From positions 1 through 51,734 of the forward strand of contig JAJYQJ010000084.1 in NCBI GenBank assembly GCA_021794655.1: 51,734 nt of DNA, given 5' to 3'. Every line of letters begins with the position of its first letter. The first letter of the stretch is position 1. The position numbers and the translations under genes are program-made. Of this stretch, positions 11,868 through 29,042 are shown piece by piece. The DNA is from Actinomycetes bacterium. Lineage in GTDB: Bacteria; Actinomycetota; Acidimicrobiia; Acidimicrobiales; RAAP-2. Under the pieces are notes generated by a model. The model was not told where the DNA came from and did no database searches. It worked only from the letters and a program-made list of their open reading frames with translations.

Positions 11868-12680
11868 GTGGCGCGATCAAAGAGCAGGGCAACCGACGGC
11901 CGTTTGAGACGTTCACCGGGAGACGACCGGGGAGCGACGACGGTTCCGTCGAGCGTACCTGCCGACGTTCCGGCCGAGATCGACTTGGGGAGAGTCCCGG
12001 TGCACGTCGCGTGTGTTATGGACGGCAACGGTCGCTGGGCGAGCGCACGCGGTCTGCCGAGGACCGAAGGGCACGCGGCGGGCGAGAAGGCGCTACTCGA
12101 CGTCGTCAACGGAGCGCTCGCTATCGGGGTGAAGTGGTTGACGATGTACGCGTTTTCGACCGAGAACTGGCGACGACCTCCAGATGAGGTTCGTTACCTG
12201 ATGGGATTCAACGAGTCCCTCTTGATGCGTAGGCGAGATGAGTTGAACGAAAAAGGAGTTCGTATTCGCTTTGCGGGGCGGCGTGATTGGAGGGTCCCGA
12301 GGCGCGTGCTGCGCCGGATGGACGAGTCGATAGAGCTGACGAAGTCGAATACGACGATGACGCTCACGATGGCGTTCAACTACGGCGGGAGAGCTGAGAT
12401 CGTCGACGCGGTCCGTTCGCTCGTAGCTGAAGGGGTGGGTCCCGACAAGATCGACGAACGATCGATCCGTCGCCATCTCTACTATCCCGAGATGCCGGAT
12501 CCGGACCTCGTGATAAGGACGTCGGGCGAACAACGCGTGTCGAACTTCTTGCTATGGGAGATCGCGTACAGCGAGTTCGTGTTTCCAGAGACGCTGTGGC
12601 CCGACATGCGTAGAGATCATCTTTACGAGGCGGTCTTGGAATTCCAAAGCAGGAACCGGCGCTACGGGACCGTCAAGTGA
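11868..12680 (+). CDS. uppS: Isoprenyl (undecaprenyl/polyprenyl) diphosphate synthase
   Basis: This cis-prenyltransferase (270 residues) has the catalytic segment CVMDGNGRWA with Asp52, FSTENWRRP, and the C-terminal signatures MPDPDLVIRTSGEQR and ELWPD-like FPETLWPDM. It makes the long-chain polyprenyl carrier lipid for cell-wall synthesis; chain length cannot be told from sequence. The first 40 residues are a Ser/Arg/Pro-rich extension, so a start inside the frame is possible, although GTG 11868 follows GTGAGG. The stop overlaps the next GTG start (GTGA at 12677). Confidence 0.93.
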   Translation: MARSKSRATDGRLRRSPGDDRGATTVPSSVPADVPAEIDLGRVPVHVACVMDGNGRWASARGLPRTEGHAAGEKALLDVVNGALAIGVKWLTMYAFSTENWRRPPDEVRYLMGFNESLLMRRRDELNEKGVRIRFAGRRDWRVPRRVLRRMDESIELTKSNTTMTLTMAFNYGGRAEIVDAVRSLVAEGVGPDKIDERSIRRHLYYPEMPDPDLVIRTSGEQRVSNFLLWEIAYSEFVFPETLWPDMRRDHLYEAVLEFQSRNRRYGTVK

Positions 12681-12952
12681 TATTCACGAGGATTGCGGTG
12701 GCGCTCGGGATAGTCGTTCTTGGAGCACTGATCTGGCTGGCGGCGGCGGGGTTCAAGCCGGCGGTCGCGCCGCTCGTCACCCTCGCGGCGTTGGTGGTGC
12801 TCGTCGCGGGCGGCAACTGGATCAGCTCGAACTTCTCGATTCACCACGGAGGGTCTTTAAAGCGTTACGCTCCCGACGAGCCGAACCGGTCGGGGAGCGA
12901 CGCGGAGGGTCCGTCCCTGACTGGCCGAGATGCGCGAGAGTTGGAGGAGTGA
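12677..12952 (+). CDS. Small two-helix membrane protein
   Basis: The 91-residue product has two hydrophobic helices (about residues 5-25 and 30-48) and a polar, acidic C-terminal tail of about 40 residues. It belongs to no family I can name. It overlaps uppS by four bases and recO by four bases (GTGA at both ends), so it is translationally coupled in the uppS-recO unit. Small membrane proteins at this site occur in other actinobacteria, and a role near polyprenyl lipid metabolism is only a guess. Confidence 0.75.
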   Translation: MIFTRIAVALGIVVLGALIWLAAAGFKPAVAPLVTLAALVVLVAGGNWISSNFSIHHGGSLKRYAPDEPNRSGSDAEGPSLTGRDARELEE

Positions 12953-13761
12953 GCCTATTTAGTGACCGCGGCGTAGTGCTTCGAACGTACAAGCTGGGCG
13001 AGGCTGATCGAATCGTCGTAATACTCACTGAGGGTCATGGAAAGATTAGAGCGGTAGCGAAGGGAGTACGGCGCACGACGTCGAAGTTCGGCGCGCGCCT
13101 TGAGCCGCTGAGCCACGTGTCGCTACTCGTATGGAGCGGGCGAAGCGATCTCGATATCATCAACCAGGCAGAGATCGTTGATACGTTCCGTACGATCCGC
13201 GAAGATCTAGACCGCGTCCCTAAGGGAATCTCGCTTCTCGAAGTTGCCGATCAGATCTCCCAGGAAGGTCTGGCGGACCCCCGTTTGTACCAGATGCTCG
13301 TCGGCGCGCTTCGGGCGTTATCGGATACGGCGTGGAATCCAGAGCTTGTCGCACCGGCGTTCTTCTTGAAAGTGCTCGGCCTCGAAGGGTCGGCGCCGGT
13401 CTTGGACGCGTGTGCGTCGTGTGGGGCACGACCGAGCAGTTCGATTGGCCGAGATAGCGATCGCCATATTGCTGCCGAGAGGACTCCCGAGAGGGCTACC
13501 GAGGACGAAGCGGGCGATCTGGTCGAACTTGTGGCGTTTGACCTTGTCGTAGGCGGGATGCTCTGCCAGGGTTGTCGGCGTGGGCGTGCGGTGAGCGCGG
13601 AGGCGTTGGATCTGATGCGCAGGATCTTGAACGGTTCGTTGAGCGGTGTGCTTCGAGGCGTGCAACCAGGATCGGAGGAGGTAACTCAGATCGCGACGGA
13701 GGCGATGGAGACCCATCTTGACCGCCGGCTACGCAGCGTACGCTCAGCCGTCGGCGCGTGA
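12949..13761 (+). CDS. recO: DNA repair protein RecO
   Basis: The 270-residue protein has the N-terminal OB fold of RecO (SDRGVVLRTYKLGEADRIV, ILTEGHGKIRAVAKGVRR) and the helical C-terminal region with a zinc-type Cys set (CASCG and CQGC). RecO loads RecA with RecF/RecR at gaps and anneals SSB-coated strands. Between the two Cys pairs is a roughly 45-residue polar stretch with ERTPERATEDE. The start GTG 12949 overlaps the small membrane protein stop. Confidence 0.93.
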   Translation: MSLFSDRGVVLRTYKLGEADRIVVILTEGHGKIRAVAKGVRRTTSKFGARLEPLSHVSLLVWSGRSDLDIINQAEIVDTFRTIREDLDRVPKGISLLEVADQISQEGLADPRLYQMLVGALRALSDTAWNPELVAPAFFLKVLGLEGSAPVLDACASCGARPSSSIGRDSDRHIAAERTPERATEDEAGDLVELVAFDLVVGGMLCQGCRRGRAVSAEALDLMRRILNGSLSGVLRGVQPGSEEVTQIATEAMETHLDRRLRSVRSAVGA

Positions 13762-13762
13762 G

Positions 13763-14902
13763 ATGAGACGGCAGGTGCCGACGTCACGTTCGGGTGGGAG
13801 TCCGTTTGGGGTTTACGTCCACATACCGTTCTGTCGTGAACGCTGTGACTACTGCGCGTTTGCGACGTACAGCGATCGGGATCACTTGATGCGGAGCTAC
13901 GTCGAAGCGTGCGTGGAAGAGATCGAGCGTGCGTACGGTTCGGGGGATCTTCCTCCCGCGTCGAGTGTCTTCTTCGGCGGCGGAACGCCGTCTCGGCTTC
14001 CTCCAGAGGATCTTGTGACGATTCTTCGTGCGATACCGCTCAAAGAGGGTGCGGAGGTAACCGTCGAGTGCAACCCCGAAGATGCACAGATCGAGAGGCT
14101 GTCTGTGTATGCGAGCGCTGGGGTGACCCGTATGTCCTTTGGAGTCGAGTCGACCCTGGAGCACGTACTCGCAACACTGGGACGCACGTCGTCGGCGAGT
14201 GAGCGCGCCGACGAGACGGGTGGGTCGGTGCCGGAGATGCTGGCTGACGACGTTCGCCAAGTCGGATTCAAGAGTTGGAACTTGGATCTGATCTACGGCG
14301 CTGCGAGCGAGACTCACGAAGATTGGCACGACGTTCTCGTTGGGGTCGTATCGATGAGCTGTCCCCCGCCACACTTGAGCCTTTATGCGTTGACGGTCGA
14401 GCTGGGCACCCCGCTCGCGTCGGACCCGAGTCGGTATCCCGACGACGACGTCCAGGCGGAGCGCTACGAGTACGCGAGTGCGTTCTTGTCGGCCCACGGT
14501 TACGTCTGGGAAGAGATCTCCAACTGGGCTCTGCCGGGCCACGCCTGCAGGCACAACGATCTCTACTGGAGCCAAGGGAACTATCTCGGAGTTGGATCGG
14601 GTGCGCACTCGCACGTAGACGGCCGGCGCTGGTGGAACATGAGGACTCCTGAGCGCTACATTCGCGCGATTAAGACGGGGTCGTCTCCGGTCGCAGGGGA
14701 GGAGACGCTGAGCGAAGCGGAGCGTGAGTTCGAAGAGCTCGCGTTGTCCCTCAGGACGCGCCGTGGGGTCCCTGAATCGGCACTGCCGACGGCGCCGGCG
14801 GATCTCGTCTTGCGAGAAGGAGGTCGGGCCGTCTTGAACGTACGTGGAAGGCTGGTTGCAAACGATCTGACCGCTCGCTTGGTCACTGGCGCAGCGCTGT
14901 AG
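13763..14902 (+). CDS. hemW: HemW-like radical SAM protein (heme chaperone / oxygen-independent CPO family)
   Basis: From ATG 13763 the 379-residue protein has the radical SAM cluster CRERCDYC (Cys24, 28 and 31), FFGGGTPSRL, VECNPED, GVTRMSFGVES, the family segment DLIYGA and a C-terminal EEISNWALPGHACRHN-type HemN region. HemW proteins bind heme and a 4Fe-4S cluster and are often misannotated as coproporphyrinogen oxidase; the CxxxCxxC followed by a plain Tyr/Ala rather than a fourth Cys fits HemW. A TTG at 13718 is also in frame, but ATG 13763, one base after the recO stop, is the natural start. Confidence 0.9.
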   Translation: MRRQVPTSRSGGSPFGVYVHIPFCRERCDYCAFATYSDRDHLMRSYVEACVEEIERAYGSGDLPPASSVFFGGGTPSRLPPEDLVTILRAIPLKEGAEVTVECNPEDAQIERLSVYASAGVTRMSFGVESTLEHVLATLGRTSSASERADETGGSVPEMLADDVRQVGFKSWNLDLIYGAASETHEDWHDVLVGVVSMSCPPPHLSLYALTVELGTPLASDPSRYPDDDVQAERYEYASAFLSAHGYVWEEISNWALPGHACRHNDLYWSQGNYLGVGSGAHSHVDGRRWWNMRTPERYIRAIKTGSSPVAGEETLSEAEREFEELALSLRTRRGVPESALPTAPADLVLREGGRAVLNVRGRLVANDLTARLVTGAAL

Positions 14903-14962
14903 CGATTTGACCGTGGGGCCGCTTGGTTCTAGACGACCGGCAGACGAAGTATCTTGTCGCAG

Positions 14963-16098
14963 ATGCGAGACGATGCGGTGCGAGACGATGCGGTGCGAGA
15001 CGATGCGGTGCGAGACGATTCGGTGAGAAAGGACAGGGTGAGAAAGGACACGGTGCGAGACGAGAACGTCCCACAGGACGCGAGCTCGAGGGATTCGATT
15101 CGCGGCGGTGAGGTGATGGAAAAGATCGTCGGCCTCTGCAAGCGGCGGGGCTTTATATTCCCCTCGGCCGAGATCTACGGAGGATTTCGCTCGACGTACG
15201 ACTACGGTCCGCTAGGGGTGAACCTACTGCGGAACGTGAAAAATGCTTGGTGGGAAGAGATGGTCCAGCGCCGCGCGGACGTCGTCGGACTGGACGCCGC
15301 CGTCCTATCTCCACCGAGGCTTTGGGAGGCGTCGGGTCATCTCGCGAACTTCACCGATCCGCTCGTCGACTGCTTGGGTTGTCACGCTCGCTGGAGGCTC
15401 GACAAGATCGACGGCGTGTGTCCAAAGTGTGGGTCCGATCAGTTCACCGAGCCGAGGGCGTTCAATTTGATGTTCAAGACTCACGCGGGCCCCGTCGAAG
15501 ACGACGGCGCGGTTGCGTACTTGCGCCCCGAGACGGCACAGGGGATGTTCGTCAACTTTGCGAACGTCCTCCAGACGACGAGGAAGAAGCCGCCGTTCGG
15601 GATCGCCCAGATCGGTAAGTCGTTTCGAAACGAGATCACCCCTCAGAACTTCGTTTTTCGTACCCGGGAGTTCGAACAGATGGAGATGGAGTACTTCGTT
15701 CCACCCAAAGAGGCCGACGAGTGGTTCAACTACTGGTTGGACGAACGCTTCCGTTGGTATCTGGGCCTTGGGATACGAGAGGACGAACTGCGCTTGCGCC
15801 ACCACGAACGAGACGAGCTCTCGCGCTGTGGAGTTGCAGTCCTTCCGCTCTCGAAGGCGCGCGAACTTGAGAGGGCAAGTTCAACCTACGAGTGCACCGA
15901 CAGCGATGTCAGCACTTCTATGTACTGTTTAAGCCTGATTTCGCGTGCGACTTCGATACGACTCAGGGAATCGTTAAGCGCCGTCGTAGCCGAGTCGGAG
16001 TAGGGACGTCGTGGTGGGCGATGATCGACTTTGATACGTTGATGGATGACGCGGTCACCACGCGTGATAAGGACGCGACCGATCAGGCAAGAGTTGGG
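14963..16098 (+). pseudogene. glyS: Glycyl-tRNA synthetase (class II, alpha2 type), internally deleted and frameshifted
   Basis: From ATG 15116 the frame encodes a normal GlyRS start (CKRRGFIFPSAEIYGGFR, YDYGPLGVNLLRN), the Cys pair CLGCHARW and CPKCGSDQF, RPETAQGMFVNF and motif 2 (GKSFRNEITPQNFVFRTREF). After LRLRHHERDELSR (about 15826) it jumps directly to GVAVLPLSK, a segment that in intact enzymes begins the anticodon-binding domain. The region between, with ELEGIANR and class II motif 3, is missing (estimated 100-130 codons). A frameshift then occurs near 15880-15925. The true C-terminus continues in another frame (ACDFDTTQGIVKRRRSRVGV, then MIDFDTLMDDAVTTRDKD) to about 16090. Motif 3 supplies the ATP-binding Arg, so activity is not possible. 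The organism must carry another glycyl-tRNA synthetase. Confidence 0.93.
14965..15069 (+). repeat. 15-nt tandem repeat (7 units) upstream of glyS core
   Basis: Three identical units GCGAGACGATGCGGT are followed by four diverged ones. They encode RDDAV, RDDSV, RKDRV, RKDTV and RDENV in the glyS frame. Together with the first in-frame ATG at 14963, they form an N-terminal extension ahead of the conserved GlyRS start at ATG 15116. Confidence 0.93.
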
Positions 16099-16103
16099 CT
16101 AGG

Positions 16104-16664
16104 TCACGCCGCGTGTTCGTGTACGTGGGCCTTCGCGACGAGTTCGCCGAGTGTGAGATTAACGGTTCCAAGGTCGTGGCTGAGGCCGTCAATTCGCAGA
16201 TCCAAGCGACCGATGTCCGCACGCAGCCCTCCGATCTCGCCCTTCAGCTCCGCACGCAGCCCTCCGATCTCGCCCTTCAGCTCCGTGCGCGTTCCTCCGA
16301 TCTCGCCCTTCAGCTCCGTGCGCGTTCCTGCGATCTCGTCCTTCAGCTCCGTGCGCGTTCCTGCGATCTCGTCCTTCAGCTCCGTGCGCAACCCAGAGAT
16401 CTCCCCGCGCAGCTCGGTTCCTAATGAGTCGACGCGGTCCCCGAGAGAGTCGACGCGGAGCCCGAGGGAGTCGACGCGGTCCCCAATGGAGTCGACGCGG
16501 AGCCCAAGGGAGTCGAAGCGGTCCCCGAGAGAGTCGACGCGGGCCCCGAGTGAGTCAAAGCGGGCCCCGAGTGCTCGTGTGCCAGAAAGGATGGCGACGA
16601 ACGCGGCCGTGCCACCGGCGATGATCACCCCGATGAGCGTCCAGACTTGCGCGGCCATATCCAT
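16104..16664 (-). CDS. Membrane-anchored coiled-coil repeat protein, paralogue A
   Basis: The 186-residue product has an N-terminal hydrophobic segment (AQVWTLIGVIIAGGTAAFVA) and then a long predicted coiled coil. The first part is heptads of the RVDSLGD/LRVDSLG type (21-nt DNA repeat). The second part is hendecads of the TRTELKDEIAG type (33-nt DNA repeat). It ends in a conserved tail LGELVAKAHVHEHAA. A close relative with the same head and tail lies at 28584-29042. I do not know a function; similar TM-plus-coiled-coil small proteins are common in actinobacteria and cyanobacteria. Its stop is within a few bases of the decayed glyS end. Confidence 0.8.
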   Translation of the reverse strand: MDMAAQVWTLIGVIIAGGTAAFVAILSGTRALGARFDSLGARVDSLGDRFDSLGLRVDSIGDRVDSLGLRVDSLGDRVDSLGTELRGEISGLRTELKDEIAGTRTELKDEIAGTRTELKGEIGGTRTELKGEIGGLRAELKGEIGGLRADIGRLDLRIDGLSHDLGTVNLTLGELVAKAHVHEHAA

Positions 16665-17269
16665 AACGTTACCTCTTTTCTAAGATGTGAGTGTTTCTCA
16701 GGCGAGCTGGCGGTCGTGCCCAGCGAAGCGATCTTGGAGGACGGCCCACGACGGCGTTTGGAGCGAGCCGCTCTTGCACTGGCTGCGCTCGGTGCTGTCC
16801 ACATCCAATAGGGTGCCACGGGGGTGTATCAGAGGTCGATGAGGCACCTCGTTCCTGAGTAGAAGGTTGCGGCGAGAGGCAATGTGTGCTCCACCGCCTA
16901 GCGGGCAAGTGTCTGATCCGCCGCCCGTCTGACACCCCCCGCCCGCCTGCCGCCCGTCTGACACCCCCCGCCCGCCTGCCGCCCGTCTGACACCCCCCGC
17001 CCGCCTGCCGCCTGGCCGCCCGCCCGCGACCCTTCCACTGCCTTGCTGGTACGTGCCGGTGGTATCGAAGTCTCCGTCGGCGTTTCGTGGTGGAAGCGAA
17101 TGGCAACCTGTGTTATGTGGAAGAGCTGGCGGGGGACCGTGAGCGAATGCCGTCTTGCCGTTGCCGTGGGATCGATGCGATGAGTCGAGAGGAGAGGAGA
17201 CGAGACGAGGCTTGCGCTCGGCGAAGATGGCGAAGAGCAACTATCCAGGGAGCGCTTTCGTGACTTACC
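16665..17269 (+). other. Intergenic region between divergent genes, no convincing coding
   Basis: About 600 bp separate coiled-coil gene A (minus) from the response regulator (plus). It contains a 29-nt tandem array and otherwise only low-quality frames whose composition changes as the 29-nt repeat rotates frame. It must contain the promoters of both flanking genes, but no promoter stands out. Confidence 0.7.
16923..17009 (+). repeat. 29-nt tandem repeat (3 perfect copies), intergenic
   Basis: Three identical copies start at 16923, 16952 and 16981. Each contains GCCCGTCTGACACCC followed by a C-rich GCCCGCCTGCC. A partial, diverged copy precedes (GTCTGATCCGCC) and follows. The unit length is not divisible by three, in contrast to every in-gene array in this window. 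Confidence 0.95.
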
Positions 17270-18313
17270 ATGTGTGATATGGGCGATCCATCCGACGACT
17301 TGGCGATCGGCCGGACTAAAGATCTACCGACCCCCGATACGACACCCCCGACCGCGACGATCCCCGATACGACACCCCCGACCGCGACGATCCCCGATAC
17401 GACATCCCCGACCGCGACACCCCCGACCGCGACGACCCCGACTCCGACGACCCCGACTCCGACGACGGTCGTCGTGGTCGACGATCATCAACTCCTTCGC
17501 GAGGGGACGCGCCAGATCGTCGAGCGGGCGGGCGGGTTTTCGGTCGTTGGGGAAGCGGGGGATGCCGAGGGTGCGCTGGCTCAAGTTGCGGCGTGTCGTC
17601 CAGACGTGGTGTTGCTTGACGTCCGCCTCCCGACGAGGAGCGGGCTAGAAGTTGCGGCGCAGTTGCGAGAGATCTCTCCAGCTACCCGAGTAGTGATGTT
17701 GAGTGCGTTTGATGATCCGGGTTACGTGCGAGCGGCGCTCGCGGCGGGAGTGAGTGGGTACCTGTTGAAGACGACGCCGGCGACTGAGTTGGTTCGATCG
17801 ATCAGGACGGCGTTGACGGGGGTAGTGGTGCTCGACCCAAAGCTGTCGGGCTATCTGGGCACGACGAATCAAGGAGCGTCGCGTCGACTGCCGAACGCGT
17901 CCGAGACGCTGTCTAGCCGAGTCGCGGGCGACCGCAAGTTGTCGAGCGACCCGTCGCGAGCCGAAACACCGCCGACTCCGGCACTCCAAGAACCGACACC
18001 GCCGACGCCGGAACTCCAAGAACCGACACCGCCGACGACGGCACCCGAGGGACGATCGCCGGCGGGCGAGGTTGAGCGGTCGGTGGAGTTCGCGATTGGA
18101 ACGCTGCTGAGTGGTGACGTTCTGACGTCGCGCGAGGTTGAGGTCGTCAAGCTGGTTGCGAGAGGACTTTCGAACAAGGAGATAGCGGTGGCGCTTGGGA
18201 TCAGCCGCAGGACGGTCGAGGCGCATCTCAATCATGTCTTCGAGAAGGTCGGGACGACTTCGCGGACTCGACTGATCGCGATAGCGGTCGGGGAACGGAT
18301 GGTCGGAGGTTGA
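17270..18313 (+). CDS. NarL/FixJ-type response regulator with Pro/Thr-rich N-terminal tail and linker
   Basis: The 347-residue protein starts with about 60 residues of Thr/Pro repeats. A receiver domain follows, with VVVVDDHQLLREG, the phospho-accepting Asp in VVLLDVRLPTRSG and the conserved Lys in YLLKTTPATEL. A long Pro-rich linker, again repeated, leads to a LuxR-type HTH (LTSREVEVVKLVARGLSNKE, ISRRTVEAHLNHVF). Usual NarL regulators have about 215 residues, so tails and linker account for most of the excess. The start is ATG 17270. It overlaps the histidine kinase (TTGA at 18310), so the two form a cognate pair. The nearby pilus-like genes are possible targets. Confidence 0.92.
   Translation: MCDMGDPSDDLAIGRTKDLPTPDTTPPTATIPDTTPPTATIPDTTSPTATPPTATTPTPTTPTPTTVVVVDDHQLLREGTRQIVERAGGFSVVGEAGDAEGALAQVAACRPDVVLLDVRLPTRSGLEVAAQLREISPATRVVMLSAFDDPGYVRAALAAGVSGYLLKTTPATELVRSIRTALTGVVVLDPKLSGYLGTTNQGASRRLPNASETLSSRVAGDRKLSSDPSRAETPPTPALQEPTPPTPELQEPTPPTTAPEGRSPAGEVERSVEFAIGTLLSGDVLTSREVEVVKLVARGLSNKEIAVALGISRRTVEAHLNHVFEKVGTTSRTRLIAIAVGERMVGG
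17332..17466 (+). repeat. 30-nt tandem repeat in the response regulator N-terminus
   Basis: A 30-nt unit encoding DTTPPTATIP is present about three times. It then degenerates to shorter TATPP and TTPTP units (15 nt). Copies are nearly identical at the DNA level and in frame. Confidence 0.92.
17966..18045 (+). repeat. 30-nt tandem repeat in the response regulator linker
   Basis: Two full and one partial copy of a 30-nt unit encode TPPTPALQEP / TPPTPELQEP / TPPTTA. This is a second array in the same gene, in the hinge between the receiver and output domains. Confidence 0.9.
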
Positions 18314-19995
18314 CGACGGCGCCGGCAGATAAGTCCGCAGCGCGACCAGCCCCCGAGGAGCGACCAGCCCCCGAGGAGCGACCAGCCCCCGAGGAGCGCC
18401 CAATCCCGGAGGATCGCCCAACGCCCGCAGCGCGCCCAACCCCAGCAGCGAGTTCGGCCCCACGCCCCGACAGATACATAGCCGGCGCCGGCGACAGAGA
18501 CAGCGACAGAGAGGAGGTCTCTCGGGGGCGCGTTGGGTCGGTTCAGGCGGTTGTGCACTCGAAGGTGTGGGTTGGCGTAATTGGGGTACTCGTAGCGAGT
18601 GGTGCGTGGGAGGGTTTGGTACTGGCGGCGGGACTGAGTAGAAGTGAGGGGGCGGTCGTGTTCATGCCGCTCGGGTTGTTCTTGGTCCCGGTCCTGTATG
18701 CGTCGGCGAAGTTCGGGACGTTAGGAGGGGTCGTGTTCGCGGTCGTCGCGACGGCGGTCGTGTTCCCGCTCGTGGTCGGGGCGACGAGGGACGGGCAGAG
18801 CACGTACGCGTGGTTCGAGGTTGTCGAGCTGAGCGTGCTCTACGTGATCGCGTACTTCGTCGGCACGGCGGTGACGGCGGAGAGGGAGGCGAGGCGGTTC
18901 GCGGAGATTGCTCGAGTCGCCCATCGCGCGGCGGAGGATCGTTACCGGGGACTGTTCGAGACGAACTCGGAGCCGATCCTGCTCGTCGACTCCGGTGGCG
19001 AGGTCGTGGAGGCGAACGAGGCGGCGCTGGAGCTGTTCTTGGATCACCAAGTTAGAGTTGTCGGCCGCTCGATTACGACGCTCGTCGGTGAGGCGGCGGA
19101 CGTCGCGTTGAGACCCTACTCGAGCGAGGATCGAGGGGCGAGGGGAGAGTCGAGGGAGTCGTGGAGGTCGGGGTCTGGTTCTATCGTACCGGTTGGAACC
19201 GGCGGTGCGCTGTATCGCGTGATAGCGACGCCGGCGATCTCGATCGAGGGTGAGGAGATGTGTCAGGTCGTCCTCCAAGACACGACGGAAGAGGCGAACC
19301 GGCGGATGCGGATAGAGGCGTTTGCGACCCACGTGCAACAGGCTCAAGAAGACGAACGTCGTAGGATCGCACAGGAGCTTCACGACGGGCCGCTCCAGTC
19401 GCTCGTGCGTCTCTTGAGAGCGGTCGACGATCTCGAGGGAGACGATGTGGTCGGCACTGGTCGAGCCGCAACCCCGGAGCGAGAGGGTTGGCGTGGAGGC
19501 GAAGAGCTGAGGCCGTTGATCGAGTCGATCGCGACGGAGGTTCGGCGGATCTCACAGGGGCTGCGTCCCCCACTCCTTGACGACCTCGGTCTTGTGGCGG
19601 CCCTTAAGACGTTGTGCGATGAGACGGAACGCCGTGGAGGGGTAGCTGTCTTACTCCGCGTGGAGCTACCGTCGGGGAGCGTGTCGTCGGTTGTCGAGCT
19701 CGCGTTGTTTCGGATGGTCCAAGAGGCTCTGGAGAACATCGTTAGACACGCGATGGCCTCTACTGTCAGCCTCGAGCTGTCTTTTGACCGAGGTGTTGCG
19801 GGTCTCGTCGTCAGAGACGACGGTGAGGGGTTCGACCCGTCGTTGGTTGGGCGGGCGAGTGACGCGGTAGCGCTCGGGCTGACGGGGATCGCGGAGCGTG
19901 CGGAGTCGCTCGGTGGCAGCGTGGTCGTTCGCTCGGCGAGGGGCGAGGGAACGATTCTCGAGGTGAAGATTCCAGTCGATACGGGGGATAGGTGA
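18310..19995 (+). CDS. Membrane sensor histidine kinase (HisKA_3/NarL-partner type) with PAS domain
   Basis: The 561-residue kinase has a repeat-rich, Pro/Glu/Arg N-terminal tail (to about residue 60). Four hydrophobic helices (about 80-190) follow, then a PAS domain (RYRGLFETNSEPILLVDSGG to VVLQDTTEE). The HisKA_3 dimerisation helix has the phospho-accepting His in RRRIAQELHDGPLQSL. The HATPase domain has the N-box in MVQEALENIVRHA and the G-boxes VRDDGEGFDP and GLTGIAERAESLGG. The start is TTG 18310, overlapping the response regulator stop, with GGTCGGAGG directly upstream. It should autophosphorylate and pass phosphate to the adjacent regulator. There is no extracytoplasmic domain of note, so the signal may be intramembrane or cytosolic. 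Confidence 0.92.
   Translation: MTTAPADKSAARPAPEERPAPEERPAPEERPIPEDRPTPAARPTPAASSAPRPDRYIAGAGDRDSDREEVSRGRVGSVQAVVHSKVWVGVIGVLVASGAWEGLVLAAGLSRSEGAVVFMPLGLFLVPVLYASAKFGTLGGVVFAVVATAVVFPLVVGATRDGQSTYAWFEVVELSVLYVIAYFVGTAVTAEREARRFAEIARVAHRAAEDRYRGLFETNSEPILLVDSGGEVVEANEAALELFLDHQVRVVGRSITTLVGEAADVALRPYSSEDRGARGESRESWRSGSGSIVPVGTGGALYRVIATPAISIEGEEMCQVVLQDTTEEANRRMRIEAFATHVQQAQEDERRRIAQELHDGPLQSLVRLLRAVDDLEGDDVVGTGRAATPEREGWRGGEELRPLIESIATEVRRISQGLRPPLLDDLGLVAALKTLCDETERRGGVAVLLRVELPSGSVSSVVELALFRMVQEALENIVRHAMASTVSLELSFDRGVAGLVVRDDGEGFDPSLVGRASDAVALGLTGIAERAESLGGSVVVRSARGEGTILEVKIPVDTGDR
18343..18450 (+). repeat. 18-nt tandem repeat (6 units) in the histidine kinase N-terminus
   Basis: Three identical units CGACCAGCCCCCGAGGAG (RPAPEE) are followed by three diverged ones (RPIPED, RPTPAA, RPTPAA). 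The array begins only 11 codons after the start codon and is in frame. Confidence 0.94.
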
Positions 19996-28583: not shown

Positions 28584-29042
28584 CTAGGCAACGTGCTCAT
28601 GAGTGTGAGCCATCGCAACCAACTCACCCAGTGTGCGGTTCATGGTGTGGAGCTCGACGTTGATCGCATCAACCCGAACGTTCGTAGCACCGATCTCACT
28701 CTTCAGGTCCGTGCGCAACTCACCGATCTCACTCTTCAGGTCCGTGCGCAACTCACCGATCTCGCTCTTCAGGTCCGTGCGCAACTCACCGATCTCACTC
28801 TTCAGGTCCGTGCGCAACTCACCGATCTCACTCTTCAGCTCCGTACGGAGGCCGTCGTTCGCACCTATGAACTCGGCGCGTAGGGCGTCGTTCGCACCTA
28901 TGAACTCGGCGCGTAGGGCGTCGTTCGCACCTATGAACTCGGCGCGGAGGCCATCGATCTTTCCCAGTATAGCGACGGAGAAGGCGACTCCTCCAGCGAT
29001 GATGATTCCAATCAGCGTCCAGACCTGCACAGCCACATTCAT
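28584..29042 (-). CDS. Membrane-anchored coiled-coil repeat protein, paralogue B
   Basis: The 152-residue protein has the same architecture as the product of 16104-16664. It starts VQVWTLIGIIIAGGVAFSVA (membrane anchor), has three GANDALRAEFI hendecads and four SEIGELRTDLK hendecads (33-nt DNA repeats), and ends LGELVAMAHTHEHVA. Head and tail are strongly conserved between the paralogues while repeat number and type differ. An 11-residue period predicts a slightly right-handed coiled coil. No function is known to me. Confidence 0.8.
   Translation of the reverse strand: MNVAVQVWTLIGIIIAGGVAFSVAILGKIDGLRAEFIGANDALRAEFIGANDALRAEFIGANDGLRTELKSEIGELRTDLKSEIGELRTDLKSEIGELRTDLKSEIGELRTDLKSEIGATNVRVDAINVELHTMNRTLGELVAMAHTHEHVA

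Follow-up and report, generated by a model that had tools for sequence, protein, structure and literature searches.

The window analyzed here, a stretch of 51,734 nucleotides, corresponds to contig C100 in a draft genome (2,707,925 bases in 155 contigs, with an estimated completeness of 95.13% and a contamination of 0.32%). Its forward strand carries a gene that we take to be uppS (11868 to 12680), followed by recO (12949 to 13761; TIGR00613, with RecO_N and RecO_C), hemW (13718 to 14902; TIGR00539) and the glyS locus. Directly 3' of glyS stand two further forward-strand genes which, from a reading of their sequences, probably encode a response regulator (17270 to 18313) and a histidine kinase (18310 to 19995).

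Matches to uppS, recO and hemW, all syntenic in relatives, precede glyS in 10 of the 13 relatives' loci compared; among the remaining three, one has no hemW at this place and two end at a contig edge or have no uppS. The two regulator-like genes occupy the same place, in the same order, in a single relative (G016) among these 13, and the window genes at 26 to 38 kb have matches further downstream in relatives, with their order kept. Because gene order is conserved on both flanks, the placement of glyS at its ancestral locus is supported, as the first-pass annotation had proposed from the neighbor order recO-hemW-glyS. The same synteny indicates that, at the scale of genes, the contig was not joined from unrelated pieces.

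The forward-strand reading frame at 14954 to 16003 matches the dimeric glycyl-tRNA synthetase (GlyRS) over 237 conserved residues from 15113, and matches to NF003211 and TIGR00389 at this locus lie over the cut-off. The ATG at 14963, previously given as the start of the gene, is one possible start; conservation sets in at 15113/15116, preceded by a possible N-terminal extension (14963 to 15112). This extension contains in-frame DDAVR repeats, encoded by 15-base tandem repeats with 97% matches at 14964 to 15063. The relative with locus L050 has a short and different extension before the conserved GlyRS start. The N-terminal part proper (15113 to 15823, 237 codons) includes motifs 1 and 2, aligns without gaps to relatives as far as DELS, which ends at 15823, and is 83 to 87% identical to its best relatives, bearing out the earlier description of the N-terminal and motif 2 parts as intact.

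Directly after DELS, nine bases (15824 to 15832) replace 99 codons. Alignment to a full-length GlyRS, a check proposed in the first-pass annotation, shows that 99 residues lie between DELS and VAVLPLSK in the relative L012 and that these include ELEGIANR and motif 3; both elements are missing from the window, as had been noted, and the loss, put earlier at about 100 to 130 codons, amounts to 99 residues when measured against L012. The replacement is in frame, and VAVLPLSK (15833 to 15856), the start of the anticodon-binding domain, is still read in the frame of the N-terminal part.

The frame break is located after VAVLPLSK and not at the 99-codon deletion. The interval from LE to CDFD spans 80 bases in the window versus 51 in L050 (hand-counted), and it is through these 29 additional bases that the frame is lost. 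The rest of the truncated open reading frame (15857 to 16003) continues to a TAG stop, its GlyRS register lost after the first codons. What remains of the anticodon-binding domain (50 codons with no internal stop) lies in another frame at 15946 to 16095, confirming that this domain continues out of frame; it is decayed in its residues as well. At least 15 codons, as read from the alignment, are absent from the end of glyS. Compared with the dimeric (alpha2) bacterial GlyRS (TIGR00389 / PRK04173), the locus is thus alike in position and in residues 1 to 237, where the region of motifs 1 and 2 retains its conserved residues, and differs in having no motif 3 among its 99 missing internal codons and an anticodon-binding domain that is decayed and in a different frame. 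Motif 3 of this enzyme was not found elsewhere in the draft contigs.

The loss of 99 codons together with the many residue changes in the remnant means that these lesions did not arise from a base-call error, as previously argued. For the deletion taken by itself, an assembly fault is a different matter: glyS would be intact, or nearly so, in the genome, and the 99-codon gap would come from sequences wrongly joined, perhaps those of a functional gene and of a decayed partial copy close to it. A draft of 155 contigs that shows a single GlyRS locus, although the organism cannot do without the enzyme, is consistent with such a fault, as are the pristine N-terminal part and the abundance of tandem repeats around the locus. 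Conversely, the assembly has no Ns at the junction, the flanks are syntenic, and the decayed C-terminal part needs a source and stands in the right order behind the N-terminal part. Moreover, among eight relatives compared, only L050, the nearest one, has the CDFD of the remnant, and its TQG recurs in L050 and L045, suggesting that the C-terminal part is the lineage's own gene. We therefore regard a misassembled deletion as unlikely, though a serious contender.

The two parts of the locus differ in the constraint under which they have evolved. Conservation was scored in columns conserved in at least 95% of 77 relatives, which were kept from 109 loci after removal of identical proteins and of loci not fitting the N-terminal pattern (L050 is not among the 77, and about three of the rows are gapped near the C-terminal columns). 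None of the 101 such columns in the N-terminal part is changed in the window, and each of its six segments is clean. In the C-terminal remnant, 10 of 26 conserved columns are changed, the maximum among the 77 relatives being 4.

The same difference appears at the level of codons, for which 8 of 11 relatives were used (L042, L046 and L048 fell outside the pattern). Divergence between the window and these relatives at codon positions 1, 2 and 3 is 0.143, 0.091 and 0.449 in the N-terminal part and 0.273, 0.312 and 0.555 in the C-terminal part; among the relatives themselves, the corresponding values are 0.104, 0.076 and 0.346 for the N-terminal part and 0.074, 0.057 and 0.398 for the C-terminal part. 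A joint codon model with branch lengths common to both halves rejects their simultaneous death (2dlnL 28.3, 1 df, P = 1e-7), and in this model the omega of the N-terminal part on the window branch does not differ from background (P = 0.30). When the C-terminal part is fitted alone, on its 50 codons only, omega is 0.108 on the window branch versus 0.0107 elsewhere (2dlnL 19.7). An omega of 1 on the window branch is not rejected for the C-terminal part (2.50) and is rejected for the N-terminal part (61.8). Among the control genes, uppS and recO show no difference from background on the window branch (2dlnL 1.27 and 1.53), and hemW is slightly raised (2dlnL 4.09).

Simulations of neutral decay place the C-terminal part at about 0.2 substitutions per site. 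Decay sufficient to spoil about 10 of the 26 C-terminal columns would also spoil some 37 to 43 of the 101 N-terminal columns (about 37 at 0.2 substitutions per site), and zero changed N-terminal columns occurred in none of 1,000 runs, already at K = 0.05. With no internal stop or indel, the remnant is slightly tidier than expected from free decay: at K 0.2, 56% of the runs had acquired a stop. Synonymous sites along the window branch are saturated, with neutral changes numbering about 10 for each codon, so times are rough and no date is attached to these events.

The C-terminal domain has therefore been abandoned, and the N-terminal half has been selected until now or until recently. The first-pass annotation had pronounced glyS dead, a verdict that these results do not support for the N-terminal half. 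In bacteria, the pseudogene of a replaced housekeeping gene shows an in-place deletion, a frame break and a decayed 3' part. The window glyS resembles such a pseudogene in its lesions and in the decay of its C-terminal part, and differs from it in a 5' half without decay, constraint not having been lost along the whole of the former gene. Had the entire gene died once its role passed to a duplicated or transferred GlyRS, both halves would have been decaying for an equal time; the untouched N-terminal columns and the rejection of a common death argue against this, making it quite improbable that the locus is a pseudogene of the ordinary kind.

No second glyS, and no glyQ, was found in the draft contigs, where the earlier annotation had suggested searching for one. 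The family model of the dimeric GlyRS matched, in the draft contigs (95.1% complete), only the glyS locus and, weakly, places on contigs C57 and C73, which from their length we take to be ThrRS and ProRS. The best glyQ match in these contigs scored 10.5 bits, the cut-off being 361.45. The class II core (PF00587) was found at six places, one on the window contig and five elsewhere, those on C57 and C73 among them, with only the glyS locus read as GlyRS. A C-terminal-half probe from L050 recovered only the remnant in the draft contigs, and no C-terminal half was found elsewhere in them. These searches covered the dimeric family, the tetrameric type through glyQ, the shared core PF00587 and the C-terminal half.

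Across the 41 genomes of the neighborhood, the window's own included, glyQ was found in none, and the neighborhood thus shows no change to the tetrameric enzyme. The N-terminal query has a match in all 41 genomes and a single match in 39 of them; the second matches are a piece beside a scaffold gap in G001 and a weak one in G033. The G001 locus (L050, G001:C87) was considered as a second damaged glyS and rejected: two Ns in an otherwise intact gene mimic a split gene in searches, so the apparent split is an assembly gap and not a parallel case.

Genes for tRNA-Gly with anticodons GCC, CCC and TCC are present in the genome (tRNA finder on 28 loci, of 41 tRNA places), and the need for glycine charging is accordingly unchanged. 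The gene for tRNA-Gly(GCC) is identical over its 74 bases to those of G002 and G032, both of which have a GlyRS match; this identity gives no hint of a tRNA adapting to a foreign enzyme and, like the lack of a second GlyRS in the draft contigs, counts against replacement of the whole gene by another synthetase. All three isoacceptors carry U73, which was also considered as a clue to a foreign enzyme; U73 is likewise present in the nine relatives' rows with visible 3' ends (of 30 loci, one being the window's own) and is general in bacteria according to PMC3990555, and it does not discriminate.

The best explanation, which we hold with belief and doubt in about equal measure, is that the organism's own dimeric (alpha2) glyS suffered real damage in place, in at least two steps, at a locus known from a draft assembly. 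In this account a frame break severed the C-terminal anticodon-binding domain, which has since decayed like unselected DNA, to about 0.2 substitutions per site; over that period purifying selection acted normally on the N-terminal half, which holds motifs 1 and 2. Motif 3 was taken out separately, when 99 codons were lost in frame, this order of the two events being the probable one. The product should not match the full enzyme in charging tRNA-Gly, and the cell should therefore carry another charging enzyme outside the draft. The first-pass annotation likewise had the cell relying on another GlyRS, a biological necessity provided that the locus is correct. Such a second enzyme would lie in the missing part of the genome, and it counts against this two-step account that the GlyRS it needs is not seen in 155 contigs with an estimated completeness of 95.1%.

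Several histories can be set beside these observations. One that fits is that the fragment is still in use. It fits equally that an enzyme without the anticodon-binding domain worked for a while and lost motif 3 lately, once another GlyRS was available. In a third that fits, and as already weighed an unlikely one, the 99 codons are missing through a fault of the assembly.

How a fragment might remain in use can be compared with known systems. The anticodon-binding domain has been lost in synthetase-like proteins such as HisZ and the aa:CP ligases. These proteins, according to PMC9437257, arose by duplication beside a housekeeping copy and use a synthetase part outside normal charging, which for the window fragment is a candidate role. 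With a second GlyRS charging tRNA from the missing part of the genome, the fragment may thus have been retained for a new job that does not involve tRNA charging. Constraint on the N-terminal part during decay of the C-terminal part is consistent with such a role, the synthetase-derived proteins described in PMC9437257 provide precedents, and a stretch of the N-terminal part gives matches to DNA polymerase gamma accessory subunits. In contrast to HisZ and the aa:CP ligases, which have a housekeeping copy alongside, no second GlyRS was found in the draft of the window's genome; furthermore, all strongly conserved columns are kept, and under a new function drift in the active-site columns would often be expected. 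A new role of this kind seems to us doubtful.

It is highly improbable, yet conceivable from the sequence, that the half still present functions as a natural GlyRS fragment. It would then be one chain of a split GlyRS, with the other half (motif 3 and the anticodon-binding domain) encoded in the unassembled part of the genome, or else an Urzyme-like enzyme that has motifs 1 and 2 alone. On this reading, selection kept the conserved N-terminal columns while the rest of glyS decayed. The HisRS Urzyme, an engineered class II construct of 122 residues for which amino acid activation and tRNA charging are reported in PMC4082485, likewise keeps motifs 1 and 2 without motif 3 and the anticodon-binding domain. 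As described there, it differs in being a laboratory construct from another synthetase that also lacks the long insertion, whereas the window fragment is known from sequence only.

GlyRS is an essential enzyme, and literature searches of open-licence papers returned no title on a glyS truncated like that of the window. If the C-terminal half decays next to a selected N-terminal half, the locus would be a natural experiment on how small a class II synthetase can be, or on how part of a synthetase comes to serve another purpose; should a second GlyRS be discovered, the locus would be a case of an essential gene replaced stepwise where it stands.

Beyond the glyS remnant, an antisense open reading frame (16104 to 16664, reverse strand) resembling a coiled-coil protein has its stop end where the remnant ends, and a paralog of it lies at 28587 to 29042 on the same contig. 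Tandem repeats of 33 and of 21/42 bases occur within this frame at 16228 to 16571. GC-rich tandem repeats follow at 16920 to 17012 (29 bases, 3.2 copies, 100% matches) and at 17328 to 17457, where repeats of 15, 30 and 45 bases lie within the response-regulator-like reading frame.
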